Assembly (NCBI GenBank): GCA_902610175.1
Contig: CACLUR010000002.1
Location: forward strand, 231,116-295,115
Length of the DNA stretch: 64,000 bases
Direction: 5' to 3'
Source of the DNA: an uncultured Alphaproteobacteria bacterium
Lineage (GTDB): Bacteria; Pseudomonadota; Alphaproteobacteria; HIMB59
Shown here: in pieces, positions 16,315-35,392 of the stretch
Layout of the letters: each line of letters starts with the position of its first letter
Numbering within the stretch: position 1 is the first letter of the stretch
Translations under genes and position numbers: made by a program
The notes under the pieces: generated by a model
The model's input: the letters and a program-made list of their open reading frames with translations, nothing else
The model's database searches: none
Told to the model about the DNA's origin: nothing

Positions 16315-16401
16315 ATAAAAATATAACATAGATTTTTTAATGAAAGTAATAGAAAAAAAGTCTCAGTTTTGAGGTTTATGTAGAAAAGACATAATCTCTA
16401 A

Positions 16402-18129: not shown

Positions 18130-18130
18130 C

Positions 18131-19342: not shown

Positions 19343-19343
19343 T

Positions 19344-20177: not shown

Positions 20178-21028
20178 TTATATGTAATATTCTTTATAGA
20201 TTGGTTTTTATCTAAAATTATTAGAACATTACAATAACTAGGAGTGGTCATAGACATCCATTTAGATAACTTCTCATAATATTGAATAAATTTATAAAGT
20301 TTCTTTTTAAGCTTATTATCGTTACTTAAAGAGCGAAGGTCCAACTCTTGTTTATATTTCCAATTAATAACATTTTCCCAATTTGGTAACTTAATAAATA
20401 CATAATAATTAAACTTATTGAAAATTTTTTGATAATCATCTAAGAATTTATTATAAGCTGTTCTCCAAATGAAGTTTTGGTCTTTATTTTTTTCTAACTC
20501 ATTAATATTTTGATTTAAATATTTAGTATCAATTGTTTTTGAACCAACACACCATCCTTCTAAAATGATTAAATCAGCTCTACTAATTTTTCTTTTATAT
20601 TTTTTTGTATTATCAGTTACCTTGTCAAATGTGGGTAAATATACAGGGAATTTCTTACCCCTCAATTGATCAATAGTTTCATATAGCAATTTAAAATTAT
20701 GAGTACCAGGCACACCTCTGGTTTCGAATAAATTTGTCTTAAATTTTTTAGCTAATTTTTTTCTTTGATAAGAAGATAAATAGAAATCATCAATACTCAA
20801 TATAACAACATTCTTTGAATAAAATTTTTGAAAATATTTTTTAATTATTAGAGATAATGTCGATTTACCTGACCCTTGAGATCCTGCAATCATAACTGTT
20901 TTTTTGTATTGTAACTTCATAAACAACCTCAAGTAGGTATCATTAATCTCATCAAAACTTAGCATTTTTCCAGTTAACTTTTTAAGAGTATATTGGATAA
21001 AGTATAATTTAGAGTTAATTTCAGACAT
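20174..21028 (-). CDS. D-glycerate kinase (GLYK-type P-loop kinase)
   Basis: A 284-residue P-loop kinase of the plant/yeast glycerate 3-kinase type. Walker A is IAGSQGSGKSTLS (Gly49-Thr57), followed by VVILSIDDFYLS, ETRGVPGTHNFKLL, YLPTFDKVTD and LIILEGWCVGS, the usual motif order. It would phosphorylate D-glycerate to 3-phosphoglycerate. That closes a loop with the phosphorylase (which frees glycerate) and GpgS (which uses 3-phosphoglycerate). It is preceded by a 107-base gap that holds a small AT-only hairpin. Confidence 0.87.
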   Translation of the reverse strand: MSEINSKLYFIQYTLKKLTGKMLSFDEINDTYLRLFMKLQYKKTVMIAGSQGSGKSTLSLIIKKYFQKFYSKNVVILSIDDFYLSSYQRKKLAKKFKTNLFETRGVPGTHNFKLLYETIDQLRGKKFPVYLPTFDKVTDNTKKYKRKISRADLIILEGWCVGSKTIDTKYLNQNINELEKNKDQNFIWRTAYNKFLDDYQKIFNKFNYYVFIKLPNWENVINWKYKQELDLRSLSNDNKLKKKLYKFIQYYEKLSKWMSMTTPSYCNVLIILDKNQSIKNITYK

Positions 21029-21135: not shown

Positions 21136-22017
21136 TCAGCCTTTTACAGCTCCAGCAGTAAGACCACTTATAAGTTGACGCTGAAAAAACCATATAATCA
21201 TGAACAAAGGGGCGGTAGCAGAAACAACACTAGATACTGCCCACATGTAGTTTCCACCATGCTCAATAGTTCCTAAAAATGCATTTATTTTTGGAACCAT
21301 TGTATAGTTCTGTTGATTAAGCAATAAAGCAGTAACAGTAAAATCATTATATGCTAACATCATACTGAACAAGCCTGCTGTCACAACTCCGGGCCACATG
21401 ACTGGCATAATAATATAACGAAACGCTTGAAAATAAGAGCATCCATCAATTAATGCGCTTTCATCTAATTCTTTTGGAACTGTCTTAAAAAAAGAATAAA
21501 GAAGCCACAAGGTAAAAGGTTGATTAATGGCAACTAACACAATAATAGTGGTAGGTAAAATTCCCCATATGTTTAATTGAAAAAAAGGAAATAAATATCC
21601 TGAGACTAAAGTAATGTGAGGCATAGCTCTAAATATCAAAGCAGCTATTAAAATATAAAAGGTATATTTATATGTTGATCTTGACAAAGCATAAGCACCT
21701 AATGTTCCAAGAAATAATGAGATTGATACTACTGATACAGTGACAATCATTGTATTCAATGAAGCTCTCCAAAACTCACCTTCAAACCATGACTCTACAT
21801 AAGCTTTTACAGTTGTAGTTGCACCTGTTTCAATCAATGTATTGAAACCCGTTAAAGCATATGTCCACTCAGCTCTTGAAAAAAAATCTGCTTTTACTTT
21901 GAAAGAGCCCCATAAAGTCCAAAGAAAAGGGAAAATTGAGATAGTGAGCCAAAATAAAATAAAAATGCCATTGAAAATAATAAGTTGCTTCGAGTACTTA
22001 TTTAATTTTGTATCCAT
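21136..22017 (-). CDS. sugar ABC transporter permease, MalG type
   Basis: A 293-residue inner-membrane permease with six predicted helices, for example IFNGIFILFWLTISIFPFLW near residue 14 and MIVTVSVVSISLFLGTLGAY near residue 90. The conserved EAA loop is visible as ELDESALIDGCSYFQAFRYI, which contacts the ATPase. It ends in the WFFQRQLISGLTAGAVKG tail typical of MalG/UgpE-like proteins. It directly follows the MalF-type gene with no gap. No ATPase gene lies nearby. The substrate is likely a glucoside or glucosylglycerate, from neighbours only. Confidence 0.92.
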   Translation of the reverse strand: MDTKLNKYSKQLIIFNGIFILFWLTISIFPFLWTLWGSFKVKADFFSRAEWTYALTGFNTLIETGATTTVKAYVESWFEGEFWRASLNTMIVTVSVVSISLFLGTLGAYALSRSTYKYTFYILIAALIFRAMPHITLVSGYLFPFFQLNIWGILPTTIIVLVAINQPFTLWLLYSFFKTVPKELDESALIDGCSYFQAFRYIIMPVMWPGVVTAGLFSMMLAYNDFTVTALLLNQQNYTMVPKINAFLGTIEHGGNYMWAVSSVVSATAPLFMIIWFFQRQLISGLTAGAVKG

Positions 22018-23046
22018 TTATCTTTCAGTCCTAAATTCTTTCCATGTTCTTATTAAAACTGGTGTAAGTAAAAAGGCTATTCCAATTATGGTAAGCATAG
22101 ATGTTGCTCCTGCAGATCCAAAGAGCATTTTATTTTCATTTCTTAAATCTTGATAAATCATCCATGATAAAGATTGAGCAACACCCTCCGCAGAAAAACC
22201 AATTATGGGTTCGAAAACCCTAAAATTATCCATTAGGCATATTAACATTATAAATGTCGCTACAGGATAAAGGTGAGGAATAACTATATAACGCACCCTT
22301 TGATATCTAGAAGCTCCATCTATGTAAGCAGCCTCTATTGGGTCTTGAGGAACTGTTTGAAGCGCTGCATAAAAAACAACAAAAGCAAATGGAGTGTTAT
22401 GCCATATCCCATAAATTATTAGAGTAATCCATGTTAAATTACTGGATGCTTTCAAAGAGAGATTGGGGTCATCAAATAAAATTTGAATAGAAGCACCAAT
22501 TATACCTTGCGAGTCAATCATCCAAAACAAAACTAGAGATCCAATTAAGGGAGTCACAATCATAGGTAGAATTGTTCCAAAAACTATGAAGCCTTTAATG
22601 ATTTTAGATAAAGTGTTCACACTCAAAGCCACGATAAAACCTAATATTATTACTGGAGGTGTAACAGCAAAACAAAAAGTTAGAGTAAATAAAAGAGCTT
22701 TATAAAAAGGAAGATTTAAAACAATATCTTTAAATTCACTCATTGATGATGATGTATTCCAAGCTTCCCCTATTTCATCGAATGCTAGATGATTTCTGTC
22801 AGTATAGGTACCAAACCCATTAAACCTCCCTAAAGGATTTTCCTGTCTTAATTTTTCAGTCGCCTCAACATCAACGCGCACATTTGTTTTACATCCAAAA
22901 GGATCACAATTTTCAACTTCCATTAAGATCTGTTCAGTTTCAATATGTAATGATTGAAAAAAGCTAGATACAATTGGTAGGCCAATAAATAAAATCATAG
23001 CTAGGCCTGTGGGTAGAATAAACCAAAAGAAAGTTTTATGAGGCAT
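22018..23046 (-). CDS. sugar ABC transporter permease, MalF type
   Basis: A 342-residue inner-membrane permease. The first helix is FFWFILPTGLAMILFIGLP. A periplasmic loop of about 80 residues (40-120) carries a CDPFGC cysteine pair that could form a disulfide. The EAA loop is DPIEAAYIDGASRYQRVRYI. The final helix is followed by a short basic tail. It lies ten bases beyond the U-run of a strong hairpin after the binding-protein gene, so its expression is probably a fraction of that gene's. Confidence 0.92.
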   Translation of the reverse strand: MPHKTFFWFILPTGLAMILFIGLPIVSSFFQSLHIETEQILMEVENCDPFGCKTNVRVDVEATEKLRQENPLGRFNGFGTYTDRNHLAFDEIGEAWNTSSSMSEFKDIVLNLPFYKALLFTLTFCFAVTPPVIILGFIVALSVNTLSKIIKGFIVFGTILPMIVTPLIGSLVLFWMIDSQGIIGASIQILFDDPNLSLKASSNLTWITLIIYGIWHNTPFAFVVFYAALQTVPQDPIEAAYIDGASRYQRVRYIVIPHLYPVATFIMLICLMDNFRVFEPIIGFSAEGVAQSLSWMIYQDLRNENKMLFGSAGATSMLTIIGIAFLLTPVLIRTWKEFRTER

Positions 23047-23056
23047 TTAATTACTT

Positions 23057-23091
23057 AAAAAAAAGAGTGGACCATATCAATGGACCACTCT
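23057..23091 (-). terminator. intrinsic terminator/attenuator between binding protein and permeases
   Basis: Read on the − strand, AGAGTGG pairs with CCACTCT (7 bp), then one mismatch, then CCAT with ATGG, closed by a 4-base loop (hairpin 23064-23091), followed by eight U (23057-23064). This is a textbook rho-independent terminator. It sits between the binding-protein stop and the MalF-type start, which favours high binding-protein to permease ratios. Confidence 0.85.
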
Positions 23092-23114
23092 ATCAAATTT
23101 AATATAGCTATGTT

Positions 23115-24350
23115 TTATAAAAAACCCTGCTCAGTAGCCTTGGCTATGTAAGCAGCTTCAACATCAGCTAATGCTTTTTCAGCTGACTCATTGCCTTGAA
23201 GAAATTCTACAAGTTCTGTACTCAAAGCACCGTGCATCAAGCTCATATGTGGAAAACTAGGGTAAGGTGTTGTACCTCTACTAGCAGCATCCACAACTGG
23301 CCCTGCAGTATCACCAGGTGTGTAACCTTTAATTAACCACACAGTTGCATTAGGATTGTTATTAGCTAAATCAGTTGATGAAGCAGCTCCAACTAAAGCT
23401 CTAAATGAAGCCTCTGCATTTTCATCAGATGTGTTTGTAGCAATTGCAATTCCATCCCACCAAAGAGTGGTTGCAGGTTTGCTACCACCGCCTACAGTAG
23501 GTGATGGGGCTAATCTTGTATCAGCTTTGATATCTTGATCACCTTCATCATCAAGTAAAGATGCAGCACCTGAGTTCCAAACATGCATTAATGCAACGTT
23601 ACCAGACTCCCACTCTTCTTTAACAGCATTTGTATCTTGTGTTAAAAAATCAGGATTACTTAACTCAGTTAATTTTTTAATAACATTCAAAGCTGCAACA
23701 CCTTTTTCGTTGTTCACATTAGGCTGAGCAGATCCTGATTTAAAAAACTCACCACCATGACCAAGGTACATGTTCACAAATTCTTGACCAAGATTCCATC
23801 CAGACTTGAAAGCTCCTGCATATGGATTGTCCATAACTCCAGCTGCTTTGATTTTTTCAGCAGCAGCAATTACCTCTTCATAAGTAGAAGGAACTGCTAT
23901 TCCTAAATCGTTAAGAATACTCTCTCTGTACCAAAGATGTTGTGCGTTTGCCATAAAAGCTACAGCATAAATCTTTCCATCAATTGTAATCTTTTGATTT
24001 TCATTTAAGTTTGAACCGTATTTTTCAACTAAATCATCAAGTGGACGAATTAAACCGTCATTCATTAATGGTGTAATTGAGCCATTAGTAACTAATTTAG
24101 CTGAAAATTCAGCAGGATTTGCTGATAAGGCAGCTACTTGTAATTTGTTATGATCAACAGAGTGCGTAACATTAAAATCTGCATCTGGACCAGCGCAACT
24201 TTTTACTTCATCCATAAAAATTCTGTATGTAGTAAATTCGTTCGCTAAAATATTTATTGATCCGTTTGTTACACCACAAGGTGAGTGACTACCTGCAAAA
24301 ACGCTAGTAGATGCAAACGAGATCAATAAAGCTAACATTAGTTTTTTCAT
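23115..24350 (-). CDS. extracellular solute-binding protein, sugar ABC transporter (family 1)
   Basis: A 411-residue periplasmic binding protein with signal peptide MKKLMLALLISFASTSVFAG (cleavage after about residue 19). It contains the lobes typical of carbohydrate-binding family 1 proteins: KYGSNLNENQKITIDGKIYA, FMANAQHLWYRESILNDLGI, and LMHVWNSGAASLLDD. It has a cysteine pair (CGVTNGS and the CAGPD region). Base composition is less AT-rich than its neighbours, as expected for a highly expressed gene. An SD-like AGAGGA precedes the start. It is the first gene of the glucosylglycerate/sugar transport transcript. Confidence 0.93.
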   Translation of the reverse strand: MKKLMLALLISFASTSVFAGSHSPCGVTNGSINILANEFTTYRIFMDEVKSCAGPDADFNVTHSVDHNKLQVAALSANPAEFSAKLVTNGSITPLMNDGLIRPLDDLVEKYGSNLNENQKITIDGKIYAVAFMANAQHLWYRESILNDLGIAVPSTYEEVIAAAEKIKAAGVMDNPYAGAFKSGWNLGQEFVNMYLGHGGEFFKSGSAQPNVNNEKGVAALNVIKKLTELSNPDFLTQDTNAVKEEWESGNVALMHVWNSGAASLLDDEGDQDIKADTRLAPSPTVGGGSKPATTLWWDGIAIATNTSDENAEASFRALVGAASSTDLANNNPNATVWLIKGYTPGDTAGPVVDAASRGTTPYPSFPHMSLMHGALSTELVEFLQGNESAEKALADVEAAYIAKATEQGFL

Positions 24351-24454: not shown

Positions 24455-24874
24455 TTATTTAAAACTAAGACCCATTTGTTCAAAAACACCATGGTTATCG
24501 ACCATTACATAATTATCCATAAATTTACCATTTTTAATTGTCCAAAAGTCAGAAAATTGCATTTTAATTGCCTTTCCAGTTGGTTTTACTCCTAAATAAG
24601 TACCGCTATGAGTTCCAGTTAAATAACCCGTCGCACTTATCCATTCACCTTCTGCGACAACAATATCATTTTTTACATGATAGTCTGGAAATGCCTCATA
24701 AAAAGGTTTGAGAACCTTATATTTAAAATTTTCAATTCCGTGAATATCACCAAAACCTGGAGGTCCATGCCAAATCATATCATCGTTCCAATATTTATGC
24801 TGTGCCTCTAAATCTTGTGCATTCAAAGCATCGTACATATTTTGCAGCAGTATTTTATTTTCATTTATATTCAT
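24455..24874 (-). CDS. single-domain SnoaL/NTF2-like protein
   Basis: A 139-residue protein of the SnoaL-like (NTF2 fold) family: YDALNAQDLEAQHKYWNDD, MIWHGPPGFGDIHGIENF, FPDYHVKNDIVVAEGEW, TGTHSGTYLGVKPTGK, and a closing DNHGVFEQMGL. SnoaL folds include polyketide cyclases and small hydratase or isomerase-like enzymes, but many members have unknown reactions. It overlaps the next double-SnoaL gene by 4 bases and is the downstream partner in that operon. It resembles the B-type halves of the larger proteins in this island (MIWHGPPG against MIWWGPGG). Confidence 0.88.
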   Translation of the reverse strand: MNINENKILLQNMYDALNAQDLEAQHKYWNDDMIWHGPPGFGDIHGIENFKYKVLKPFYEAFPDYHVKNDIVVAEGEWISATGYLTGTHSGTYLGVKPTGKAIKMQFSDFWTIKNGKFMDNYVMVDNHGVFEQMGLSFK

Positions 24875-26010
24875 TTTTTTTCCCCTAAAATTTGTATTAA
24901 GATTGCCAATTCATTGAAACCAGTCCATTCTTTTACAATTTTATTATTTTTAATTTCCCATTGTGTAATGCCCCAGAGATAACATTCTTTATTAGATGGT
25001 TTACCATAAATTCCATTTCCTTTGTGAGTTCCCACAGCACCCCAACGAATTGACACTAAATAACCATCTTTACTATTTCCCATCCAATATAGATCTTCAA
25101 CACTTAGTGCAAGGTCAGGAAATGATGCAATTAATGAGATTATAAAATGTTTAAGCTTAGGTATTCCAACAAATTTTCGACTAGTTGAACCTTCAAATTT
25201 TATATTTTTTGTATAAACGCTATCAATAGCAGAAAAATTTCTTCTATTCCAAATAGTATCAAAAACCGCATGCACAAATTCTCTAATGTTTTTAATTTTA
25301 TCAGGTATAGCGAAACTTATATGCTTTAACTTTTTAATATTTCTTTTGGGTTTTGAATTTCTAAAATCAGGAGCAAATGGACCAATATTTCCTTTATTAG
25401 CAATTTGTATTGCTACTTCATTTAAATCTAAGCCTAATTGTTTTATTAAACCTGCAGTATCATAAACAACATTTTCGTAATATATTTCATTATTTTTTGC
25501 TACACAGTTTGCAATACAGAACAACCTAACTGATTTACCTGTTGGTTTGGCAAAATTACTATAACCGGTGTTAGTGCCTGTAATTATAGTTCTGTGTGAA
25601 GTATGAAAACTAGTTTTGTCGTCTCCTGCCCATATAACCTCATCAGCATATAATCGAATGTTCGGGAATGCGTTATTAGTATGAACTGTATCAGAGACAA
25701 TTTTTTCAGATCCGAATTGTAATCCAAGTTCATCCCAAACACGACATTTTGGGCTATAAGTATCGTATATATAGCCAATATTTTTTTCTTCCCATATGCT
25801 GTATGTAATTCTGACAATATAATCAATTATATTTTTATATTGTTTTTCAAATCCCTGCATTGACTGAAATGGTAAATTTTTAGGGTTTGGATTTAAAGAT
25901 TTAGCATTACCACCTCCACCATAGGATTTAAGAGAGATATCAAAATTTTTTGGCATTTGATGATCTTTTAAAGGGGTTGGTTTTAAATCTTTAATTAGAG
26001 TTTTTTTCAT
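24871..26010 (-). CDS. double SnoaL-domain protein, A type (copy 1)
   Basis: A 379-residue protein with two SnoaL/NTF2-like halves. The first half (about 60-195) contains YIVRITYSIWEEKNIGYIYD, VIWAGDDKTSFHTSHRTI and FAKPTGKSVRLF. The second (about 235-375) contains VFDTIWNRRNFSAIDSVYTK, LIASFPDLALSVEDLYWMG and IYGKPSNKECYLWGITQWE. The same order occurs in the protein at 28944-29915, so they are paralogues. The first 50 residues are a proline- and basic-rich extension. It is divergent from a B-type double-SnoaL gene across a 95-base gap. The reaction is unknown. Confidence 0.85.
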   Translation of the reverse strand: MKKTLIKDLKPTPLKDHQMPKNFDISLKSYGGGGNAKSLNPNPKNLPFQSMQGFEKQYKNIIDYIVRITYSIWEEKNIGYIYDTYSPKCRVWDELGLQFGSEKIVSDTVHTNNAFPNIRLYADEVIWAGDDKTSFHTSHRTIITGTNTGYSNFAKPTGKSVRLFCIANCVAKNNEIYYENVVYDTAGLIKQLGLDLNEVAIQIANKGNIGPFAPDFRNSKPKRNIKKLKHISFAIPDKIKNIREFVHAVFDTIWNRRNFSAIDSVYTKNIKFEGSTSRKFVGIPKLKHFIISLIASFPDLALSVEDLYWMGNSKDGYLVSIRWGAVGTHKGNGIYGKPSNKECYLWGITQWEIKNNKIVKEWTGFNELAILIQILGEKK

Positions 26011-26105
26011 AAATAAATGTACTAATACTATTAAATAAAATTCAAAGCAATAATTTTATATAAAATGAATATTATTATTTTTTCTTTTGTATTATAAATA
26101 GACTA

Positions 26106-27110
26106 ATGTCTGATTTTCAGAAAGAAAAATCATTAGTATTAAATTTTATAAATGAAGTTGATAATGCTACTGAAAATAACTTAATTGAAATAATTTCTAA
26201 GTACGCATCTAATAATTTTAATATGAAATGTACACATCCTTTTAACGAAATAATAGGCATTGAAGAATTTGCAACAAAATTTTGGTTTCCTATAAAAAAA
26301 TCATTTAAGCCTATCCAAAGGAGAATGGATATCTTTTATGCTGGCACAAATTTAGTTGATAATCATTCTTCAAAATGGGTTGTGAATATGGGACATTTAC
26401 TTGGAAGTTTTAATTTTCCTTTTTTTGACATTCAACCAAATTTTAAAACTGTAATGTTATGGTATTGCGAGTTTTATAAAGTAGAGGATAACAAAATACA
26501 AGAAGGTGCTTTTTTTTTAGACATTTTAAAATTTATGCAACATTTAAATTTATCAGTTGTCCCAGAGTCAACGGGGATGATTGGCTTTAATCCAGGACCT
26601 AAAACACATCAGGGTTTATGCTTTGATAAACAAAGTGAAATAGAAGGAAAGAAAACTCTTGACCTTATAATGAGAATGGCAAATCGATTAATTGGTGAGG
26701 GGATGAGGACAACAATTCAAGATCTACATAAAGACTGGCATGAGGACATGATATGGTGGGGACCTGGGGGTATTGGTGCATCATATACCTATGAAGGTTA
26801 TTTAAAAGGTCACACGGGCCCTTTTGAGGATAATTTAGATTTTATTGATTTCTCTGGACATATACTTGAAAACTCAGAGGGCAATTATGGTGGATGGTTT
26901 GGTTGGCCAAATTTAAAAATGAAACCAAAGGGTAATTACATGGGATTCAAACAAGACACAAATCTTATTGGGGAGATGAGAGTTGTTGACCTTTATAGAA
27001 GAGATGGAGATAAAATAGCAGAAAATTGGATATTAATTGATCATCTTCATTTTTTAGAATGTGTGGGCATTGATTTACTTGAGAGAAATAAAAATGAAAA
27101 TTCTAAATAA
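26106..27110 (+). CDS. double SnoaL-domain protein, B type (copy 1)
   Basis: A 334-residue protein with two SnoaL-like halves. The N-terminal half (1-160) has a loop built on CTHPFNEIIGIEEFATKFW and LGSFNFPFFDIQPN. The C-terminal half (about 190-325) has LHKDWHEDMIWWGPGGIGAS and RRDGDKIAENWILIDHLHFL. It pairs by sequence with the protein at 30978-32087, sharing (M)WWGPxGIG- and ENWxxIDxxH-like elements. Aromatic- and glycine-rich loops suggest a hydrophobic ligand pocket. Its 3' end overlaps the convergent MetE-like gene by 8 bases. Function is unknown. Confidence 0.83.
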   Translation: MSDFQKEKSLVLNFINEVDNATENNLIEIISKYASNNFNMKCTHPFNEIIGIEEFATKFWFPIKKSFKPIQRRMDIFYAGTNLVDNHSSKWVVNMGHLLGSFNFPFFDIQPNFKTVMLWYCEFYKVEDNKIQEGAFFLDILKFMQHLNLSVVPESTGMIGFNPGPKTHQGLCFDKQSEIEGKKTLDLIMRMANRLIGEGMRTTIQDLHKDWHEDMIWWGPGGIGASYTYEGYLKGHTGPFEDNLDFIDFSGHILENSEGNYGGWFGWPNLKMKPKGNYMGFKQDTNLIGEMRVVDLYRRDGDKIAENWILIDHLHFLECVGIDLLERNKNENSK

Positions 27111-28233
27111 CTTTTGAAGCGAGTTTAGTACCCTCCACTAATGCAATCAGTTTTTCATAACAAATATTTTCATCAATTTTTCCAAAGCCTGCAAAGGTAC
27201 TAAAGCCACAATCAGTCCCAGCCATTAATTGTTCTTTAGGTACAACTGTTGAGTACTTTATTAATCTTTCAGCTACTACTTCCGGGTGTTCTACAAAATT
27301 AGATGTAGAGTCAATTACGCCAGGTACTAACACTTTATCTTTTGGTAATTTTATTTCTTCAAAGACTTTCCACTCATGTGCATGACGAGGATTAGATGAC
27401 TCAATCAAAAAATATTTAATTTTTGATTTTAGAATTATAGGTAATATTTTTTTAAGAGCAATATCATGAGTATGTGGTCCCTCATAATTACCCCAACAAA
27501 TATGCATTCTTGTTTTTTCAATATCAACATTTATTAAAGCATAATTTAAACACTCAATTTGCATTTCAGCTTTTTTTAAAAAATCTTCCTCAGATAGATC
27601 TTTAAAATTCATATGCCTAGCTAGGGCTAAATCTGGACAGTCTAATTGAACATGAATATTTGCATTAGTAATTTGTTCATATTCATTTGCCATAATACCA
27701 GAGAGTTTATTTAAGTATTCATCATCACTAGCATAAAATTTATTTGGCATAAAAACATTAATAACACCCGGTGATGCTGCATTCATAAATGCTTTTGCAT
27801 GATCATACTTTTTTAAGGCGTTGCTAAAATTTTCAATATCATTTAACAAAGAAAAATTATCTTTTATTTTTAATTCATTGGTGCAACATGGTCTTGAATA
27901 AGTAGGTGTTCCACCACTAATAGTTAACTTTTCCTTATAATCTGGAAAATCGTCTAAATCGGCAGGTGCTCTTCGTTCACTTTCTCCTGAAAAACCGTCA
28001 ATTCTATCCTTGATATAAGTGGCATAACTAATCTTGCTCATCTCACCGTCACTTATGAAATCTAACCCCACTTCGAGTTGTCTTTTTACAATTTGCTCAA
28101 CATTTGAGTTTAAAATATTTCCAAATAATTTTTTGTTGTATTCTTCACCCTTATCCTTGGCAAAGAGATATTCTGATAGTTCTTTGGATCTTGGTAAGCT
28201 CCCAACGTGTGTTGTCAAAATTTTAGATGCCAT
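27103..28233 (-). CDS. MetE C-terminal-like (cobalamin-independent methyltransferase core) protein
   Basis: A 376-residue single-barrel homologue of the C-terminal catalytic domain of methionine synthase MetE. It lacks the N-terminal half of true MetE (about 750 residues). The zinc ligands of the family can be placed: His244 and Cys246 in RMHICWGNYEG, Glu278 in LIESSNPRH, and Cys342 in GTDCGFSTF. The N-terminus TTHVGSLPRSKEL is typical of such core proteins. It may demethylate a small methylated compound or bind a thiol substrate; it need not make methionine. It is the last gene of a − strand run after the RraA-like gene (5-base gap). Confidence 0.83.
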   Translation of the reverse strand: MASKILTTHVGSLPRSKELSEYLFAKDKGEEYNKKLFGNILNSNVEQIVKRQLEVGLDFISDGEMSKISYATYIKDRIDGFSGESERRAPADLDDFPDYKEKLTISGGTPTYSRPCCTNELKIKDNFSLLNDIENFSNALKKYDHAKAFMNAASPGVINVFMPNKFYASDDEYLNKLSGIMANEYEQITNANIHVQLDCPDLALARHMNFKDLSEEDFLKKAEMQIECLNYALINVDIEKTRMHICWGNYEGPHTHDIALKKILPIILKSKIKYFLIESSNPRHAHEWKVFEEIKLPKDKVLVPGVIDSTSNFVEHPEVVAERLIKYSTVVPKEQLMAGTDCGFSTFAGFGKIDENICYEKLIALVEGTKLASKVI

Positions 28234-28238
28234 AATAA

Positions 28239-28940
28239 TTATGAATTGATAAATTGTTTATACTTATCTAAGAATTGTTTTTTCGAAAATTTTTTATTTT
28301 TTCTTAAGAAATCAAAAATTATTTTTTCTTTTTTTATCATTTTTTTTATAGCCAATGGTAATTCGATTAAAAAGTCTCTTTTTATTATAACAGCGCCGTG
28401 CATGTCTGCATGAATAAGGTCGTCAGGTCTTACTTTCATATTAAAAATATCAACATTGCAATTAATTTTATGAATTTGATTGTATCCATGCCCTACTCTT
28501 ATTTCACCACTTAATATTTGAAACTTTCTATTTATCTCCTGTAAATCTCTCATTGCTCCGTTTGTTATAGCTCCAACAAATCCAAAATTTAAATGTATAG
28601 ATGCATTAAGTTCACCCCACCATGCACCAATTGTATTAGTCTTATCCTTATCCTCGATAACACAAATCTTAGGGTAGTTTCCTTCGAACATATACTCGTA
28701 ATATTTATCTCTATTTTTTATTATATTTGTATTTTTCTTTTTTCTGGATGTAATAATTGCTGTTTTGGCAAAACCAATAATTGGTTTTAAACTCGGATTT
28801 AGACAATGCATTGTTTTTTGTGTGTGTCCTTTTGATCGTAGAGTTGTATCTAATAATTCTAGTGAATTTGAAATAGTTGGAGTGTCAAAATTTCTAATGT
28901 ATTCAATAATTTTCTTTTCTCTTTTTGTTAGTAGTTTCAA
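28239..28940 (-). CDS. RraA / HMG-aldolase-like protein
   Basis: A 233-residue protein of the RraA fold, which includes 4-hydroxy-4-methyl-2-oxoglutarate/oxaloacetate aldolases. The active-site pattern is AWWGELNASIHLNFGFVGA, then TNGAMRDLQEI with the Arg131-Asp132 pair, and late RPDDLIHADMHGAVII. Glu110 and the RD pair are consistent with a divalent-metal aldolase or decarboxylase. It lies between the A-type SnoaL gene (3-base gap) and the MetE-like gene, so it is likely a step of the same pathway. Confidence 0.82.
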   Translation of the reverse strand: MKLLTKREKKIIEYIRNFDTPTISNSLELLDTTLRSKGHTQKTMHCLNPSLKPIIGFAKTAIITSRKKKNTNIIKNRDKYYEYMFEGNYPKICVIEDKDKTNTIGAWWGELNASIHLNFGFVGAITNGAMRDLQEINRKFQILSGEIRVGHGYNQIHKINCNVDIFNMKVRPDDLIHADMHGAVIIKRDFLIELPLAIKKMIKKEKIIFDFLRKNKKFSKKQFLDKYKQFINS

Positions 28941-28943
28941 TTG

Positions 28944-29915
28944 TTATCCAGTTTTTAATAAAATTTGTTTCCAAATTATTGTTTCATCAAACAAAACCCA
29001 CTCATTTTTGATCCCTCTTGGACCAAATTCAGCCTGAGAAATTCCCATTATATGAATATTTGCATTACTAGGATCAGAAAATAATCCGGGTCCTGAATGA
29101 ATTCCCTCTAGTGACCATCTAATGGATGCCTTTTTATACTCATTTTTTTCCTCTAAATAGCTTATATGTTCAACTTTAAAAATTGAATCCGGAAACATAG
29201 ATCTTAGTGAAGACCAAAAACTCTTTACCTCATCTACCCCTAATGCTTTCTTGCCTCCAGGCTGTTCTTGATTGACTGATCGATCATAAACTTTATCTAT
29301 TATGTTAAAATTATTATTAAATATTTCCTTTAAAATGTTAGCATAATCTATTCCAGTATTGTTTGTTGAGATCGGTATTTGTATATATTTTACTTTATGT
29401 GAGGTATTGTTATTAAAGGGAGCTGGGCATTTATCTTTACCGCCTTGATTTTCAATCACTTTTGCTGCATGTTTTTTAGGGTCAATGTTTAACTGCCGCA
29501 CAATAGCACCCTGGTCTCTTACAAGCCATTCATCGTAAACCTGGTTATTCTTGCAAGCACAATCAGCTATTACTCGATACTTGAGAGTTTTACCAGTAGC
29601 GTTTCCATAAATACCATCATTTAAATGCGTCGCCTTAGATAAAATTCTATGTGATGATAAATATCCATGTTCTTCATTACCAATCCAAATAACATCTTCG
29701 CCTAATAACTGTCGATCTGGAAATTCATTCAAAGTGGCATAAGTAGCTTTCACTACAGCATCAGGGCCATATATTACACCGTCTGGAGATCTAACTGGAA
29801 TACTCTCAGCATAATAGTCTCTAATTGACTCAACATCTTTATTTTCCCAAATTTGATATGTTATTTTAAATATATAATCTGGTAGATCTAAAAATTTATT
29901 ATCAAAACCTTTCAT
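28944..29915 (-). CDS. double SnoaL-domain protein, A type (copy 2)
   Basis: A 323-residue paralogue of the protein at 24871-26010. Half one (1-140) has YIFKITYQIWENKDVESIRD, DVIWIGNEEHGYLSSHRIL and GNATGKTLKYRVIADCACK. Half two (180-320) has ILKEIFNNNFNIIDKVYDRS and LRSMFPDSIFKVEHISYLEE, ending WVLFDETIIWKQIL. It lacks the 50-residue N-terminal extension of copy 1. It sits two bases after the bicupin gene and 3 bases before the RraA-like gene in one tight transcript. Function is unknown. Confidence 0.85.
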   Translation of the reverse strand: MKGFDNKFLDLPDYIFKITYQIWENKDVESIRDYYAESIPVRSPDGVIYGPDAVVKATYATLNEFPDRQLLGEDVIWIGNEEHGYLSSHRILSKATHLNDGIYGNATGKTLKYRVIADCACKNNQVYDEWLVRDQGAIVRQLNIDPKKHAAKVIENQGGKDKCPAPFNNNTSHKVKYIQIPISTNNTGIDYANILKEIFNNNFNIIDKVYDRSVNQEQPGGKKALGVDEVKSFWSSLRSMFPDSIFKVEHISYLEEKNEYKKASIRWSLEGIHSGPGLFSDPSNANIHIMGISQAEFGPRGIKNEWVLFDETIIWKQILLKTG

Positions 29916-29917
29916 TA

Positions 29918-30892
29918 TTAGAGGTTTTTTTGTCGTATAATAAAGATACTTCCTTCTTGATTGCTAATATTTTTTAAACTTCTATTTGATCCTCTGGGAG
30001 ACGAGAAAGAGTCGTTTGGTCCAATTGTGGTTTTTTGATCATTGCAAGTTACTTCCCATTCACCTTCTAAACATAAATAAACTTCAGACTCTTTTAATGT
30101 GTAAGGATGAATATGAGCATTATTACCTTTTAACATCGTCAAACCAAAACCTGTATTATGGTCTATGTTTGGCTCAAAATCTTTGTTATGAACATTAAAA
30201 TGGTCAATGTAATTTAAAATTGAATTAGAGTCATAATGTTCATCATCTTTTAAATATTTATCCTTATTTTCATAACGTATTACATATTTTTCAATTTCTT
30301 CAGAAGTGTAATGATCGAAAGACTGTAAATCTTTTTCTTTAATAGGTTCAATGGCAACTTTTCCATCTGGAATTTTATTCTTATCAAGATCAACTAAGGT
30401 ATTATCATTTAATAAAACCATTCCAGACTCTTTTGCTTTTTCTAAAACTTTTGGTGTCCACGTTATCACACCAGGATCATTTTCTCCTAGAACAACAAAT
30501 ATTAATGCATTTTCATCACTAACATTTTGAAATCCTCGAAACATATTTGTGGGAAATGAAGCAACATCTCCTTTGTTTAAAACTACTTCGCCCTCTTTAC
30601 CATCTTTGCCCCAATAAAAGCGCCAAGAGCCTGAAAATATCAAAAATACTTCTGCAGTAGTGTGGCTATGAAGTCCCGATCCGTTCATTGGAGCGGCACT
30701 TACTGCACCGATATTGAAACCATGTTCTTCAGCTATCTTGACGTTTTGCTTGGTATCCTCACTCACTCCAGGACCAACTATAGAATAATTCAGTCTATCT
30801 TGATGCCCTTTAAGCTTCCCTTCTACAAACGGAACTTTACTTGGAACTAGCTCATTAAACTTTACCAAACGACTGTTGATATCCTGCGTCAT
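29918..30892 (-). CDS. bicupin protein
   Basis: A 324-residue protein with two cupin barrels. Cupin 1 (about 55-135) has GSGLHSHTTAEVFLIFSGSW, with His75, His77 and Glu81 as likely metal ligands. Cupin 2 (about 240-320) has NAHIHPYTLKESEVYLCLEG, with an equivalent His/His/Glu set, then the IGPNDSFSSPRGSNRSLKN loop. Both sites look intact except that the usual second-motif histidine of cupin 1 is replaced in FPTNMFRGF. It could be a dioxygenase or isomerase of the gentisate/bicupin type. It is the first gene of the − strand operon and is divergent from a B-type SnoaL gene. Confidence 0.85.
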   Translation of the reverse strand: MTQDINSRLVKFNELVPSKVPFVEGKLKGHQDRLNYSIVGPGVSEDTKQNVKIAEEHGFNIGAVSAAPMNGSGLHSHTTAEVFLIFSGSWRFYWGKDGKEGEVVLNKGDVASFPTNMFRGFQNVSDENALIFVVLGENDPGVITWTPKVLEKAKESGMVLLNDNTLVDLDKNKIPDGKVAIEPIKEKDLQSFDHYTSEEIEKYVIRYENKDKYLKDDEHYDSNSILNYIDHFNVHNKDFEPNIDHNTGFGLTMLKGNNAHIHPYTLKESEVYLCLEGEWEVTCNDQKTTIGPNDSFSSPRGSNRSLKNISNQEGSIFIIRQKNL

Positions 30893-30977
30893 TAATTAGA
30901 TTTTAAATTTCCTCAATTTATTAAATATTATTTAAATTATAAAGTTAATCAAAGTAATATTTATTTATATTAGATAG

Positions 30978-32087
30978 GTGAGGCAATATAACTTGAGCGA
31001 AATTAAAAATTTTGATACCGGTATTCCAATTAAAAATGGTGCAAAAATTATAAATTTGGACCCTAAAGAAAATATATTAAATAAAAAAAAAATTAGAAAT
31101 CTTCTCAAAAAAATTTCTGAGTCCAAAGATAGTGATTTAAGTCAAAATATAAAGAATGCATATCATGAAAATGCTGAAATCTATGCATTCCACCCTGTAA
31201 ATCATATAAAAGGCATTGATGAAATAATTAATACCCTTTGGAAACCTTTACTGAATTCTTTTCCAGATTTAGAGAGAAGAGATAATTTAATAATTGGAGG
31301 GAGTTTTCAAGATAGGGTTTATGTCTCAACTGTTGGTCATTTGACTGGCACTTTTGTCAATCCATGGTTAGGAGTTCCCTCTAATGGTAAAACTATTCAT
31401 TTACGAATTTGTGAAGTTCATCAAATAGAAAATGAAAAAATAATCAATTCTCATATGTTAATTGATATAATGGATTTTATAAGGCAAGCAGGTTTTTGGC
31501 CAATTAACTCATCTTTAGGTATAGAAGAAATGTGGCCAGGACCCATTACTGGAGACGGAACAACCTTTGAAAACCTAGATTCTGATTTATCAGCTAGAAC
31601 TCTTGATCAGGGTCTTACGATGCAAAGAAGTTTAGATATAAAACCAGAAACTGAGACTGGAGCTACTAAAGATAGTGTTAGACAGAAATTAATTAACCAC
31701 CCTCAAAAAGATTATTGGCATCCGAAAATGATGTGGTACGGACCATGTGGTATAGGCACTGCTAGAGGTTTAAAAGGTTTTATTGAGCATCATCAGCTAC
31801 CATTTAGATTGACTTTTAAAGAGAGAAATTATTGGAAAATTGGTCATTACATTGAAATAGGTGATGGTAATTATTCTATGACAGGAGGTTGGCACAGTAT
31901 TCAAGCAACACACGGTTCAAGTGATTGGCTAGGATATCAACCTACTAATAAATTAGTTACCATGAGAGTAATGGATTTTTATTTACATAATGAGGGTCTT
32001 ATTAGGGAAAATTGGGTACCAATAGATATTGTCCATATTTTATTTCAATTAGGAATAGATGTACTCAAATTAGTTCATAAGAAATAA
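30978..32087 (+). CDS. double SnoaL-domain protein, B type (copy 2)
   Basis: A 369-residue paralogue of the protein at 26106-27110. Half one (about 40-175) has [40 protein letters not shown] and [18 protein letters not shown]. Half two (about 235-365) has [20 protein letters not shown] and [19 protein letters not shown]. The given start is a GTG; an in-frame TTG at 30993 (MSEIKN) fits better, because AGGTGAGG (30976-30983) would then be its ribosome site with a 9-base spacing, and it matches the MSDFQ start of copy 1. Function is unknown. Confidence 0.83.
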
Positions 32088-32089
32088 AA

Positions 32090-33415
32090 ATGACGGTTGA
32101 ATTTATCAAAAAAAGCTTAAATGAAAAACAAAGAGCTGAAGAAAACAATAAAATTAAAGCAGTTGTTGAGAACACTTTAAAGGAAATTGAATTAAAGGGA
32201 GATAGCTATGTAAGAGAATTATCAGAGAAATTTGATAAATACTCACCTAGTTCATTTAGATTATCTGAGGATGAAATAAGTAAATTAGTGGATGAAGTTT
32301 CTGATAATGACAAAGAAGATATTAAATTTGCACAAAAACAAGTTCGATCGTTTGCTGAGGCACAATTAAAAAGTTTAAGTGAAATTGAGGTGGAAACTCA
32401 ACCAGGTGTAATTCTTGGACATAAAAATATACCTGTTCAATCTGTTGGCTGTTATGTTCCTGCTGGAAAATTTCCAATGGTGGCATCAGCTCATATGTCT
32501 GTAGTCACTGCTTCAGTTGCTGGAGTTCCTAGAATAATAGCAACAACACCTCCCTATCAAGGAAAACCAAATGCTGCTGTAGTTACAGCTATGAAAATGG
32601 GAGGAGCCCATGAAATTTACGTTTTAGGTGGAATGCAAGGTGTTGGATCTATGGCTATTGGAACTGAAACTATAGAACCAGTAGATATGATTGTTGGTCC
32701 TGGAAACGCATACGTTGCGGAAGCAAAAAGACAATTGTTTGGTAAGGTCGGTATCGATTTATTTGCTGGTCCTACTGAAACAATGATTATCTGCGATGAT
32801 ACCGTAGATGCAGAGATATGTGCTACAGATCTTCTTGGACAAGCAGAGCACGGTTATAATTCACCTGCAATAATGATTACTAATTCAAGAGATTTAGCGA
32901 CAGAAACAATAAAAGAAATAGATAGACTGCTCAAAATTTTACCAACAAAAGATACTGCTGGAGTTAGCTGGAAGGATTATGGTGAAATAATTTTGTGTGA
33001 AAGTTATGATGAAATGTTGATGAAAGCTAATGAGATAGCTTCAGAGCATGTTCAAGTTATGACAGACAGAGATGAATGGTTTTTAAAAAATATGACATCT
33101 TATGGAGCACTTTTTTTGGGTGCAAGAACAAATGTTGCGAATGGAGATAAAGTAATAGGAACAAACCATACTTTACCGACAAAAAAAGCTGGAAGATATA
33201 CAGGTGGTTTATGGGTTGGTAAATTTATAAAAACTCATACTTATCAAAAAATTACAACTGATGAAGCAGCTACAAAAATTGCAGAATATGGATCAAGATT
33301 ATCATATTTAGAGGGTTTCATAGGTCATGCCGAGCAATGTAATGTTAGAGCAAGAAGATATGGTGGTATTAATGTAGCATATGGAAAACCAGTATCCAAA
33401 ATAAAACCAAAGTAA
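32090..33415 (+). CDS. histidinol dehydrogenase-family enzyme, HpsN (sulfopropanediol dehydrogenase)-like
   Basis: A 441-residue NAD-dependent alcohol/aldehyde dehydrogenase of the HisD fold. Zinc ligands and catalytic residues align with E. coli HisD: Gln251 and His254 in [12 protein letters not shown], Glu319-His320 in ASEHVQVM, Asp353 in [15 protein letters not shown], and His413 in EGFIGHAEQ. The stretches [24 protein letters not shown] and [18 protein letters not shown] fit the HpsN-type subgroup, which oxidises 2,3-dihydroxypropane-1-sulfonate or similar alcohols, better than the biosynthetic enzyme. No other his gene is nearby. It is 2 bases after the SnoaL gene and overlaps the SDR gene by 1 base. 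The actual substrate is not proven. Confidence 0.85.
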
Positions 33416-34182
33416 TGTATTTAAAAAGTTTAAGTCTCAAGAAAAAAATAGCACTAGTGACTGGTGCGGGAAAAGGTATTGGAAGAGCTTCAGCTATTGC
33501 TTTAGCGGAAGCAGGTGCTGATTTAATAATTTTAAGTCGCACTGAAAAAGAGCTAATTAAAGTTAAAAAAGAAATAAACAAATTAAAAAGAAAATGTGAA
33601 TTTTATGTTTGTGATTTATTTGATTTTGATCAAATAACTGAAGTTTTTTCAAAAATTAATAGATTAGATATTTTAGTAAATAATGCGGGAACAAATATAC
33701 CTGAATTTTTTATCAAAATTAAAAAAGAAGATATGGATTATATGGTTGATTTAAATTTGAAAGCTTCTTTTCATGTAGCACAATTAGCATCTAAAAAGAT
33801 GTTGGAGTCCAAAAATAGAAAAACGAATGGAGGAAGTATCATTAATATGTCCTCCCAGCTAGGCAAAGTTGGAGCACCAAATAGAAGTACTTACAATATG
33901 ACAAAATTTGGTATTGAGGGATTAACTAAAGGAATGGCTCTTGATTTAGCTTCAAGAAATATTCGTGTCAATTCTGTTTGTCCAACGTTTGTTGAAACTC
34001 CAATGGTAAAAAAGTTTTTTATCAATAAAAAATTTAAAAAAGAAACTTTAAAAAATATTCCACTTGGTAATTTTGCTACTGAAAGTGACGTAGCTACTGC
34101 AGTTGTATATCTAGCATCAAATGCTTCATCAATGATTACAGGTTCTTCGATAGTAGTAGACGGTGGTTGGACTACTAAATAA
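33415..34182 (+). CDS. short-chain dehydrogenase/reductase
   Basis: A 255-residue classical SDR. The cofactor loop is TGAGKGIG (16-23), NNAG is at 89-92, and the catalytic set is Ser146/147 in NMSSQLG and Tyr160-xxx-Lys164 in YNMTK. It ends with MITGSSIVVDGGWTTK, typical of FabG/gluconate 5-dehydrogenase-like enzymes. The arginine in ILSRTEKE after the second strand suggests NADPH use. It begins in the stop of the HpsN-like gene (TAATG), so the two dehydrogenases are translationally coupled and probably act in sequence. Confidence 0.92.
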   Translation: MYLKSLSLKKKIALVTGAGKGIGRASAIALAEAGADLIILSRTEKELIKVKKEINKLKRKCEFYVCDLFDFDQITEVFSKINRLDILVNNAGTNIPEFFIKIKKEDMDYMVDLNLKASFHVAQLASKKMLESKNRKTNGGSIINMSSQLGKVGAPNRSTYNMTKFGIEGLTKGMALDLASRNIRVNSVCPTFVETPMVKKFFINKKFKKETLKNIPLGNFATESDVATAVVYLASNASSMITGSSIVVDGGWTTK

Positions 34183-34212: not shown

Positions 34213-34866
34213 ATGAAAGCAATAATTTTTGGATCAATTGGAACTTTAGTAGAAACGTCTGATGTTCAAAGACAGTCATTTAATCATGCTTTTAAGGAAA
34301 TGGGATTAGATTGGTATTGGGATAAAAATAACTACAAAAAATTACTTAAAAAATCAGGGGGAAGAAATAGAGTTGAATATTTTGCAAATATTAATCATAA
34401 CACAGTAGACTCAAAAAAAATAAGAGAACTAAAAACTCAATATTTTAATAGATATTTAAAATCTAATACTATTAATCCTAGAGATGGTGTTTTAGAGGTT
34501 ATCAAGTATGCTAAATTAAATAATATTAAAATTGGTCTGGCATCAACAACTTCAATTGAAAATATAGATGCTATTTTCACAACACTTAAAGATAAAATAA
34601 GAAAATCAGATTTTAATTTTATTGGAAATAATAAACTTATTAAAAGAGTGAAACCTTACTCAGATATTTATTTTGAAGCCCTTAAAAAATTAGGTGTAAA
34701 AGAAAGTGAGTGTATAGCAATAGAGGACTCAGTTGAAAGTGCAATATCAGCTTATAAAGCTAAAATTGAATGTTTCGCATATCCTGGATTATTTCATCTA
34801 GACGATGATTTCAGTTTTTGTAAAAAGTATTTGAATAAATTAGATATTTCTATTTTTGAAAATTAA
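34213..34866 (+). CDS. HAD-like protein lacking the catalytic aspartates
   Basis: A 217-residue protein with the full layout of a beta-phosphoglucomutase/CbbY-type HAD. However, motif I is IIFGSIGTLVET instead of hhhDxDGT: the nucleophile Asp is Gly7 and the acid/base Asp is Ile9. Motif II (GLASTTS), the motif III lysine (RVKPYSDIYFEAL) and motif IV (IAIEDSVESAISA) are all retained. It therefore cannot form the usual phospho-aspartate. It may be a binding or regulatory pseudoenzyme, or use a different chemistry. The surrounding residues ETSDVQRQSFNHAF and LDWYWD look well conserved rather than decayed. It is 30 bases after the SDR gene. Confidence 0.85.
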   Translation: MKAIIFGSIGTLVETSDVQRQSFNHAFKEMGLDWYWDKNNYKKLLKKSGGRNRVEYFANINHNTVDSKKIRELKTQYFNRYLKSNTINPRDGVLEVIKYAKLNNIKIGLASTTSIENIDAIFTTLKDKIRKSDFNFIGNNKLIKRVKPYSDIYFEALKKLGVKESECIAIEDSVESAISAYKAKIECFAYPGLFHLDDDFSFCKKYLNKLDISIFEN

Positions 34867-34971: not shown

Positions 34972-35256
34972 ATGGTCAATATGCTTGTAACAATTAATAT
35001 TTCAAAAGGATGGGAAACTTGGTCTGAAATGGCTAAAGGTTTAGAGCCAAAAATGAATGAGGTTGGTTCTAAAATCATATGGGCTGGCTGTAATGCAGAC
35101 GAGAGTGCGGTCTATGTATTAGTGGAGATGAAAGATCCATCTTTTATTAAGTCTTTTGGAGAAAGAGAAGATATAGTTAAGATTAGAGAGACCGCAGGTG
35201 CAGATGTTTCATCAACAAAGCCCATAGCCCAAATAAGTAATTACTTCATGGGTTAA
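34972..35256 (+). CDS. small conserved-looking protein of unknown function
   Basis: 94 residues, beginning MVNMLVTINISKGWETWSEM, with YVLVEMKDPSFIKSFGERE in the middle. The alternation of strands and helices and the size suggest a ferredoxin-like dimeric alpha/beta barrel, perhaps related to DUF3764-type proteins. No catalytic residue can be recognised. It has its own good ribosome site and probable promoter and is not tightly linked to the HAD-like gene (105-base gap). Base composition is less AT-rich than the neighbours, which may reflect good expression. Confidence 0.65.
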   Translation: MVNMLVTINISKGWETWSEMAKGLEPKMNEVGSKIIWAGCNADESAVYVLVEMKDPSFIKSFGEREDIVKIRETAGADVSSTKPIAQISNYFMG

Positions 35257-35315: not shown

Positions 35316-35392
35316 TGGCGCGCTCTGCAGGATTCGAACCTGCGACCCTCTGCTTAGAAGGCAGATGCTCTATCCAGCTGAGCTAAGAGCGC
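35316..35392 (-). tRNA. tRNA-Arg (anticodon UCU)
   Basis: On the − strand the sequence folds as a cloverleaf. The acceptor GCGCTCT pairs with AGAGCGC, the D-arm has TAGCTCAGCTGGATAGAGC, the anticodon loop CTTCTAA gives UCU, and the T-arm holds GGTTCGAATCC. The 3' CCA is encoded at 35316-35318. It lies between the small protein gene and the livG-like gene. Confidence 0.96.

Follow-up and report, generated by a model that had tools for sequence, protein, structure and literature searches.

What might be encoded by five SnoaL-like genes that lie interleaved with genes for a bicupin, an RraA-like aldolase and a MetE-core protein? The question is raised by an island in a stretch of 64,000 nucleotides (hereafter the window) from an uncultured alphaproteobacterium of the HIMB59 lineage (contig CACLUR010000002.1, positions 231,116 to 295,115). 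The island was confirmed at window positions 24455-32087 by open reading frames, Pfam and NCBIfam. Judged by its gene content, it is best classed as a catabolic operon of unusual make-up. With a probability of about 55%, we consider it to be a self-contained pathway for the uptake and breakdown of a small methylated polyhydroxylated compound that bears a hydroxymethyl group. Most likely, the gene block would let marine and soil microbes use a methylated, sugar-like compound. No description of this gene set was found in the open-access literature searched. It is likewise absent from the available parts of two papers on AEGEAN-169 (PMC10308909, PMC11366302), and SnoaL does not occur in the body text of PMC9040609.

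Composition, extent and recurrence of the unit

The sequence-only reading had proposed five SnoaL-like genes, four of them internal doubles with nine domains in total, and this proposal held. All five open reading frames are present, and all five proteins belong to the SnoaL-like family by profile, scoring 38.1–86.7 bits against a cut-off of 28.4 bits for Pfam SnoaL (PF07366). SnoaL A (24455-24874, minus strand, 86.7 bits) has a single domain. SnoaL B (24871-26010, minus strand, 79.8 bits in two stretches), C (26106-27110, plus strand, 38.1 bits in two stretches), D (28944-29915, minus strand, 69.8 bits) and E (30978-32087, plus strand, GTG start, 65.2 bits in two stretches) are doubles, whose halves align with one another and with A. 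Half-by-half alignment pairs B with D (type I; N-halves 33% and C-halves 30% identical) and C with E (type II; 26% and 28%), and A is closest to the C-halves of E (28%) and C (26%). D is the most conserved SnoaL and E has relatives in the same cluster elsewhere. The domains of C are the weakest: its 38.1 bits are for the whole protein, and a scan of the genome gives one stretch, under the cut-off. Eight of the nine PF07366 matches of the genome lie inside this 7.6-kb stretch, so the clustering is not due to chance; seven of the nine exceed the cut-off, six of these in the island.

The bicupin (29918-30892, minus strand; Cupin_2, 64.1 bits in two stretches), the RraA-like aldolase (28239-28940, minus strand; RraA-like, 63.7 bits) and the MetE-core protein (27103-28233, minus strand; Meth_synt_2, 52.8 bits) each pass their own Pfam cut-off and are interleaved with the SnoaL genes as had been read. 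The minus-strand run of bicupin, SnoaL D, RraA and MetE has intergenic gaps of 2, 3 and 5 bases by coordinates, which agrees with the spacing of 2–5 bases noticed before. The SnoaL B and A genes overlap by 4 bases, and the ends of SnoaL C and MetE, on opposite strands, by 8 bases. Two divergent A+T-rich gaps, between SnoaL B and C (26011-26105, 95 bases) and between the bicupin and SnoaL E (30893-30977, 85 bases), are probable promoter regions. Given the pairing of the double SnoaLs into types, each of these two gaps is flanked by a type I operon and a type II gene.

The gene set assigned to 24455-32087 was thus sound, and its extent was too narrow: the full unit is about 21.1-34.2 kb and reaches beyond these positions on both sides. 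To the left lie the genes for permeases B (carbohydrate type, 21136-22017) and A (sugar type, 22018-23046) and the sugar-type, CUT1-like solute-binding protein (23115-24350) of an ABC importer, all on the minus strand. To the right, on the plus strand, lie those for an HpsN-like dehydrogenase of the HisD superfamily (32090-33415) and a short-chain dehydrogenase/reductase (SDR; 33415-34182; adh_short_C2, 197 bits), which recurs with HisD. Both blocks, 21136-24350 and 32090-34182, are assigned to the unit because they stand in the annotated blocks of relatives and because HisD is 69–74% and the permeases are 39–65% identical to their counterparts in the Ensifer, Rhizobium and Ruegeria islands, three plasmid islands in the case of HisD. 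A HAD-type phosphatase/mutase gene (34213-34866, plus strand; HAD_2, beta-phosphoglucomutase family) is a possible further member. It recurs in AEGEAN-like and SAR11 loci and has no match in the annotated plasmid relatives.

The claim that these genes act together is supported by their recurrence; asked whether their homologues usually lie apart, the searches found the set together across lineages. A pattern scan detected at least 581 stretches in the genome collection that encode SnoaL D relatives. The locus counts rest on the best 80 of these, which were sorted by the analyst into 47 AEGEAN-like, 18 SAR11 and 15 other loci (L027 and L034, labelled Pelagibacteraceae, were grouped with the AEGEAN-like loci by identity; L047 is labelled Euryarchaeota). 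Presence means a match inside the fetched stretch, and since the stretches often stop at contig edges the co-occurrence counts are lower bounds; one locus of 3.2 kb (L137) was scored as a miss unsearched. Among the best 80 are loci 96–98% identical to the window at SnoaL D, and a MarineAlpha5 locus is also related. The AEGEAN-like loci have the cupin in 47/47, MetE in 45/47, HisD in 44/47 and the importer in 37/47; for the SAR11 loci these numbers are 18/18, 17/18, 14/18 and 17/18, and for the others 13/15, 11/15, 8/15 and 12/15. The AEGEAN-like HisD is of the island type (at least 60% identity) in 39/47 loci and absent from the stretch in 3/47. In 17 of the 18 SAR11 loci D and E are the sole SnoaLs, and the remaining locus is cut and shows D. 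A minimal form with cupin, MetE, importer and HAD gene is found in most of the 18.

An even draw of 386 alphaproteobacterial genomes yielded 30 with SnoaL D (own genome included), 27 of them outside the window's taxonomic order. In the stretches fetched from these 27, the cupin is present in 23, MetE in 19, HisD in 20 and the importer in 17. Where SnoaL D is at least 40% identical (19 outside-order genomes), the cupin is found in 19, MetE in 18, HisD in 16, the importer in 16, a LacI regulator in 15, the SDR in 14, an alpha/beta hydrolase in 9, and RraA or HpaI in 6. Rhizobia and Rhodobacterales share the gene order of the AEGEAN-like and SAR11 loci. A tblastn search with SnoaL E matched 23 of 72,556 plasmid records. 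According to the annotation, a single block unites the importer with SnoaL genes in Ruegeria conchae, Marinovum algicola, Octadecabacter arcticus, Paracoccus alcaliphilus and Vibrio pelagius. All of these blocks but that of Vibrio also contain HisD, the cupin, an alpha/beta hydrolase, an RraA-type gene (under a different product name in Marinovum) and a regulator, annotated as LacI in three of the four. Of the five blocks, those of Ruegeria, Octadecabacter and Paracoccus have an annotated SDR, and those of Ruegeria, Octadecabacter and Marinovum an annotated MetE.

The search was also run with MetE first. It matched 34 of 397 genomes of a phylum draw, own genome included, and 24 of the 40 listed MetE places outside the own genome were examined. 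These comprise 9 of the 22 places with at least 49% identity and 15 of the 18 less similar ones. SnoaL genes are present in all nine close stretches, of which L164, L166, L167 and L168 had been fetched for SnoaL D and the other five for MetE alone. As a control, SnoaL D, cupin and HisD matches occur in none of the 15 stretches around MetE relatives at 33–46% identity; a single-domain NTF2 gene is found in four of them. The haloarchaeal, Pantoea and Rhodococcus MetE relatives have no island. When gene groups are ranked by how often they occur in loci with more than 42% G+C, the top 45 contain no further recurrent genes tied to the island beyond TonB receptors (9 loci) and a major facilitator superfamily (MFS) group (5 loci). 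TonB receptors, MFS transporters and sodium:solute symporters lie in the cluster in L146, L147, L190 and L191 by Pfam, in lineages that have no ABC importer.

The cluster is carried by the HIMB59/AEGEAN-169 type, SAR11, Rhodobacterales, rhizobia and metagenome-assembled genomes (MAGs) of Acidimicrobiia. The first two are major, abundant groups of ocean oligotrophs (PMC10308909, PMC11366302). Its presence in both, and in other lineages, suggests that the substrate is probably common. The annotated clusters of Marinovum algicola, Octadecabacter arcticus, Ruegeria conchae and Vibrio pelagius make the substrate testable.

Protein families and the putative route

A sugar-type importer with a LacI regulator, two alcohol dehydrogenases, a methyl-transfer enzyme, a bicupin, SnoaLs, a lactone-type hydrolase and an aldolase together make up a coherent breakdown route. 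We infer each reaction, the order of the steps and the substrate from the protein families. The substrate is best read as a methylated, hydroxymethyl-bearing polyol or enolic ring whose methyl group ends on homocysteine.

Uptake would be the task of the ABC importer. Most of the 28 distant PDB matches of the solute-binding protein are named sugar binders, the best at 49.6 bits; its relatives are 39–52% identical in the same clusters and 27–30% in Acidimicrobiia MAGs. Permease B is 47–70% identical to cluster permeases of Ensifer, Rhizobium, Ruegeria, Vibrio and Rhodobacteraceae MAGs, and 37–38% in most Acidimicrobia-type MAGs; permease A occurs in the same clusters. No close ATPase is present within the window, and MalK-like ATPases of the genome show 44% identity to the ATPase of the Ruegeria cluster.

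In the second step, the HpsN-like dehydrogenase would convert the CH2OH group to a carboxylate and the SDR would oxidise a secondary alcohol. The closest solved relatives of HisD are sulfopropanediol 3-dehydrogenase and (R)-2,3-dihydroxypropane-1-sulfonate (DHPS) dehydrogenase (E 1e-103 to 2e-110), and residues 5-434 of 441 align with HpsN (E 2e-110), that is, over the full length. In DHPS oxidation HpsN lies next to an SDR, and both the superfamily and the SDR neighbour are the same in the island. The island HisD nevertheless forms a distinct group, more distant from HpsN (373 bits) than its members are from each other, and its companions are SnoaL, cupin and MetE. A DHPS or sulfonate pathway was set aside on this ground and since no sulfonate genes were noticed among the annotated neighbours of the relatives. 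In many AEGEAN-like loci (e.g., L035, 2926-6495) the HisD end of the island abuts sulfate-activation genes: an inositol-monophosphatase-family gene, one with a 3′-phosphoadenosine 5′-phosphosulfate (PAPS) reductase domain, and a fusion of a GTPase with an adenosine 5′-phosphosulfate (APS) kinase.

The MetE-core protein would then transfer the methyl group onto homocysteine. By Pfam it consists of the catalytic domain alone, with no folate domain. S12, E64, D198, H244, C246, E278 and C342 are invariant in all 24 aligned sequences, one of them archaeal, and align with the MetE and MesD structures. They comprise the zinc ligands His, Cys, Glu and Cys (H244, C246, E278, C342; E278 was assigned by alignment and spacing) and the homocysteine positions Ser, Glu and Asp (S12, E64, D198). 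These positions are named for core methionine synthases in the available part of PMC7857596. The protein seems to represent one more core methionine synthase family: MesA–MesD of that paper also consist of the catalytic barrel only and share the zinc and homocysteine positions, whereas the island protein is set within an import and breakdown island and is distant from MesD (3rpd according to the same source; 22.9 bits alone, 54.7 bits with a profile). MesX (PF08908), the partner of MesD, has no match in the genome, nor in any of 14 control genomes. That MetE is the sole methionine synthase of the genome was ruled out by three PF02574 frames (four rows, two within one frame) and by the patchy occurrence of the island in the genus. 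If the methyl group passes directly to homocysteine, the breakdown of dissolved organic matter would be tied to methionine supply.

In the fourth step the bicupin, a probable metal enzyme, would isomerise or oxidatively open an enolic intermediate. Its AlphaFold model (pLDDT 91.5) has quercetin 2,3-dioxygenase as the best Foldseek match (E 5.7e-17, TM-score 0.55). Among the 50 listed matches the nearest ones, quercetin 2,3-dioxygenase (YxaG) and oxalate decarboxylase, have TM-scores of about 0.5–0.57. They share the two-barrel fold and the HxHx3E motif of the N-terminal barrel, where H75, H77 and E81 are invariant in 38 of 38 representatives; they differ in sequence, with identities of 9–15%, and in the fourth metal ligand.

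The SnoaL proteins would perform acid-base chemistry on the enolic intermediate, namely tautomerisation, dehydration, hydration or retro-aldol cleavage. Since SAR11 loci have no SnoaLs other than D and E, these two would form the basic pair, to which B, C and A would add. The AlphaFold model of D, the only one of the five proteins modelled (pLDDT 96.0, pTM 0.92), shows a helix-strand pattern that occurs twice, in agreement with the doubling seen in the half alignments. In a fold search it matches one-domain SnoaL-type proteins (AclR, IdmH, SnoaL) domain by domain, with TM-scores by target length of 0.70–0.81 for the AclR and IdmH chains. H97 and D118 of D are invariant across 41 aligned sequences, and in a more diverse set of 47 representatives at least 90% have H97. 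We take H97–D118 to be the likely catalytic pair. The N-half retains this His-Asp pair and the C-half His alone. The cyclases SnoaL, AclR and IdmH share the domain family, the fold and the His-Asp pair with the N-half of D, but the island proteins differ from them in being double-domain, in occurring several per cluster and in their catabolic setting.

A PcaD-like hydrolase, found in many relatives, would open a lactone or enol-lactone as the sixth step; it keeps S64 and H213 in the representatives, and D185 in at least 90% of them. Within the island of G030, a genome of the same genus, there are a weak hydrolase match (21%) and a LacI match, so the window's lineage may have trimmed the set. 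Finally, the RraA or HpaI aldolase would free pyruvate or a similar keto acid. G128, R131 and D132 of RraA, invariant in 17 representatives, form the G-xx-R-D pattern, the active-site motif of RraA-like aldolases of the 4-hydroxy-4-methyl-2-oxoglutarate (HMG)/4-carboxy-4-hydroxy-2-oxoadipate (CHA) type. RraA is not constant. An HpcH/HpaI-type aldolase takes its place in Ensifer NER9, Priestia and Deinococcus according to annotations (and Pfam for Ensifer), and neither RraA nor HpaI was found in the 18 SAR11 loci.

The nearest described chemistry is the linear syringate route of Pseudomonas NGC7 (PMC12314914). In the available part of that paper the mga genes encode a SnoaL-like NTF2 protein predicted to be a tautomerase (MgaD), which acts in series with a hydrolase and a CHA aldolase on a methoxylated ring. 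The route differs from the island in its aromatic substrate, VanAB demethylase and ring-cleaving dioxygenase, and the same part mentions no MetE, HisD or sugar importer.

Substrate and rival explanations

The sequence-only reading had suggested that the island degrades a methylated compound able to form a ring or lactone. This is supported in part: the intact MetE positions and the lactonase-, aldolase- and enol-lactonase-like partners in relatives fit it. Several observations weigh against the pathway preferred here. Shared regulation can also make genes travel together. HisD is of a different type in 5 of 44 AEGEAN-like loci (45–46% identity) and in all 14 SAR11 loci that have it (46–48%). 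MetE is absent from the stretch in the full clusters of Ensifer (L021) and Paracoccus (L111), so either some versions can dispense with methyl removal or it takes place elsewhere; a wider MetE set of 35 representatives, distant ones included, keeps S12 and E278 in at least 90%, not in all. An amidase occurs in clusters without MetE in the stretch in Martelella, Sinorhizobium and Roseibium (L107, L110, L112), with a second HisD in Martelella and Roseibium, and these relatives may encode a sister pathway whose substrate bears an amide. In the bicupin, R119 replaces the fourth metal-ligand His in 38 of 38 representatives; quercetinase-type ligands are His-His-Glu-His, and the bicupin lacks this four-ligand set. 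A search of this genome for the PcaD-like hydrolase, run without a positive control, gave no match.

The identity of the substrate is where readings diverge most. One candidate, possible if on the unlikely side, is an O-methylated sugar, uronate or lactone that derives from polymers of algae or plants and is broken down by a non-phosphorylative route. SDR oxidation and a lactonase would be followed by SnoaL and cupin in place of the usual dehydratase and then by an HpaI or RraA aldolase. This accords with the LacI regulator and the CUT1-type importer, with an L-fuconolactonase-like Amidohydro_2 gene that adjoins SnoaL C in Ruegeria (123 bits, cut-off 400), with OtnK and an aldolase in Ensifer NER9, and with the Ensifer HpaI, close to keto-deoxy sugar-acid aldolases, under their cut-offs. 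Yet no recurring sugar-acid dehydratase, kinase or glycoside hydrolase was seen in the annotated loci and the top 45 cluster groups, and we know of no sugar route with a place for five SnoaLs and a quercetinase-like bicupin. The boldest candidate is a ring of the mycosporine or gadusol type, a methoxy-cyclohexenone polyol with a CH2OH group, for which each functional group has a matching enzyme family. Demethylation would give a reductone, the bicupin, which in fold is most like dioxygenases that act on an enolic ring, would open it, HisD would oxidise the CH2OH group, SnoaL and hydrolase would rearrange the product, and RraA or HpaI would split the hydroxy-keto acid; amidase versions would act on amino-acid conjugates. 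We regard this as quite unlikely, as it follows from chemistry only, the amidase versions have no MetE in the stretch while the ring is always methoxylated, and the open-access literature searched, so far as its text was available, gave no catabolic genes for the compound. It is still less probable, a long shot, that the island supplies the missing route by which bacteria fully degrade natural sunscreens of the mycosporine/gadusol type, in SAR11, AEGEAN-169, Rhodobacterales and beyond. In that case the further core methionine synthase family would strip the ring methyl straight onto homocysteine, the quercetinase-like bicupin would open the reductone ring, and paired double SnoaLs would pass the fragments to the RraA/HpaI aldolase. 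Kojic acid, ascorbate and the head groups of betaine lipids were also considered, by their chemistry only, and set aside.

Another rival concerns the methyl group itself. The MetE-core protein could be a partner for methyl disposal or methionine salvage only, with the methyl arriving via methyl-folate from a GcvT-type demethylase elsewhere, and the island substrate need then carry no methyl at the SnoaL step. LigM/DesA-type genes occur in three of the 15 stretches around distant MetE relatives. On a Sphingobium plasmid the gene of a true DesA syringate O-demethylase (834.9 bits, cut-off 800) is 6 kb away from MetE, and in Halobellus a DesA-like gene (470 bits, under cut-off) is 14 kb away from it. 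One island without a cupin match (L086) has a DmdA-like gene (368 bits, cut-off 410), and in Marinovum a dimethylsulfoniopropionate (DMSP) demethylation operon (DmdA) begins 3 kb from the island. These DesA/DmdA links favour C1 chemistry and are compatible with direct demethylation and methyl disposal alike. Ten GcvT-domain rows above the cut-off in this 1.4-Mb genome are also in line with disposal and suggest heavy use of methylated compounds. The lack of a folate domain in the MetE-core and the occurrence of GcvT-type genes in single islands only speak against it, and we hold it to be unlikely. A methoxy-aromatic (lignin) pathway was rejected, as no ring dioxygenase or O-demethylase is present among the ten island genes scanned and a GcvT-type gene occurs in single relatives only. 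A biosynthetic natural-product cluster, as with classical SnoaL cyclases, is extremely improbable and was rejected: the fold of SnoaL D does match mostly polyketide cyclases, but most versions have an importer and many an aldolase, the annotated neighbours include no synthase genes, and the genome is small and streamlined. Moreover, against the SnoaL/DnrD methyl-ester cyclase model NF033407 SnoaL A scores 27.3 bits (cut-off 200) and B–E give no row.

Genomic setting

The window has a G+C content of 29.9%, and the assembly that holds it comprises 1.385 Mb at 94.6% completeness. About 5 kb left of the importer lies a gene for O-acetylhomoserine sulfhydrylase (15001-16329; 674.8 bits, cut-off 636), a source of homocysteine. 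Between them, 16402-21028 holds glucosyl-3-phosphoglycerate synthase-like, phosphatase-like and sucrose-phosphorylase-like genes, with scores under the curated cut-offs. A SAR11 locus (L077, 1639-7919) has a glucosylglycerate hydrolase-like gene, also under its curated cut-off, and a second sugar importer. Such glucosylglycerate-type genes border the island here and in several SAR11 loci, in two different orders in the window and L077, and none was seen in the annotated relatives; they were treated as neighbours.

On the other side, a 94-residue open reading frame (34972-35256) is 98% identical in two relatives and has no Pfam or NCBIfam match at the limits used. A tRNA-Arg gene (35316-35392) follows immediately past the right end of the island. 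The island is patchy within the genus: 28 of 52 genomes, own included, match at E <1e-50, and 6 of the 10 same-genus genomes that are at least 90% complete do so. This distribution and the position of the tRNA-Arg gene would fit an exchangeable island at a tRNA. In one same-genus genome (G038:C1:268431-269554) the MetE copy is interrupted by several stop codons, so at least one lineage is losing the island to decay.

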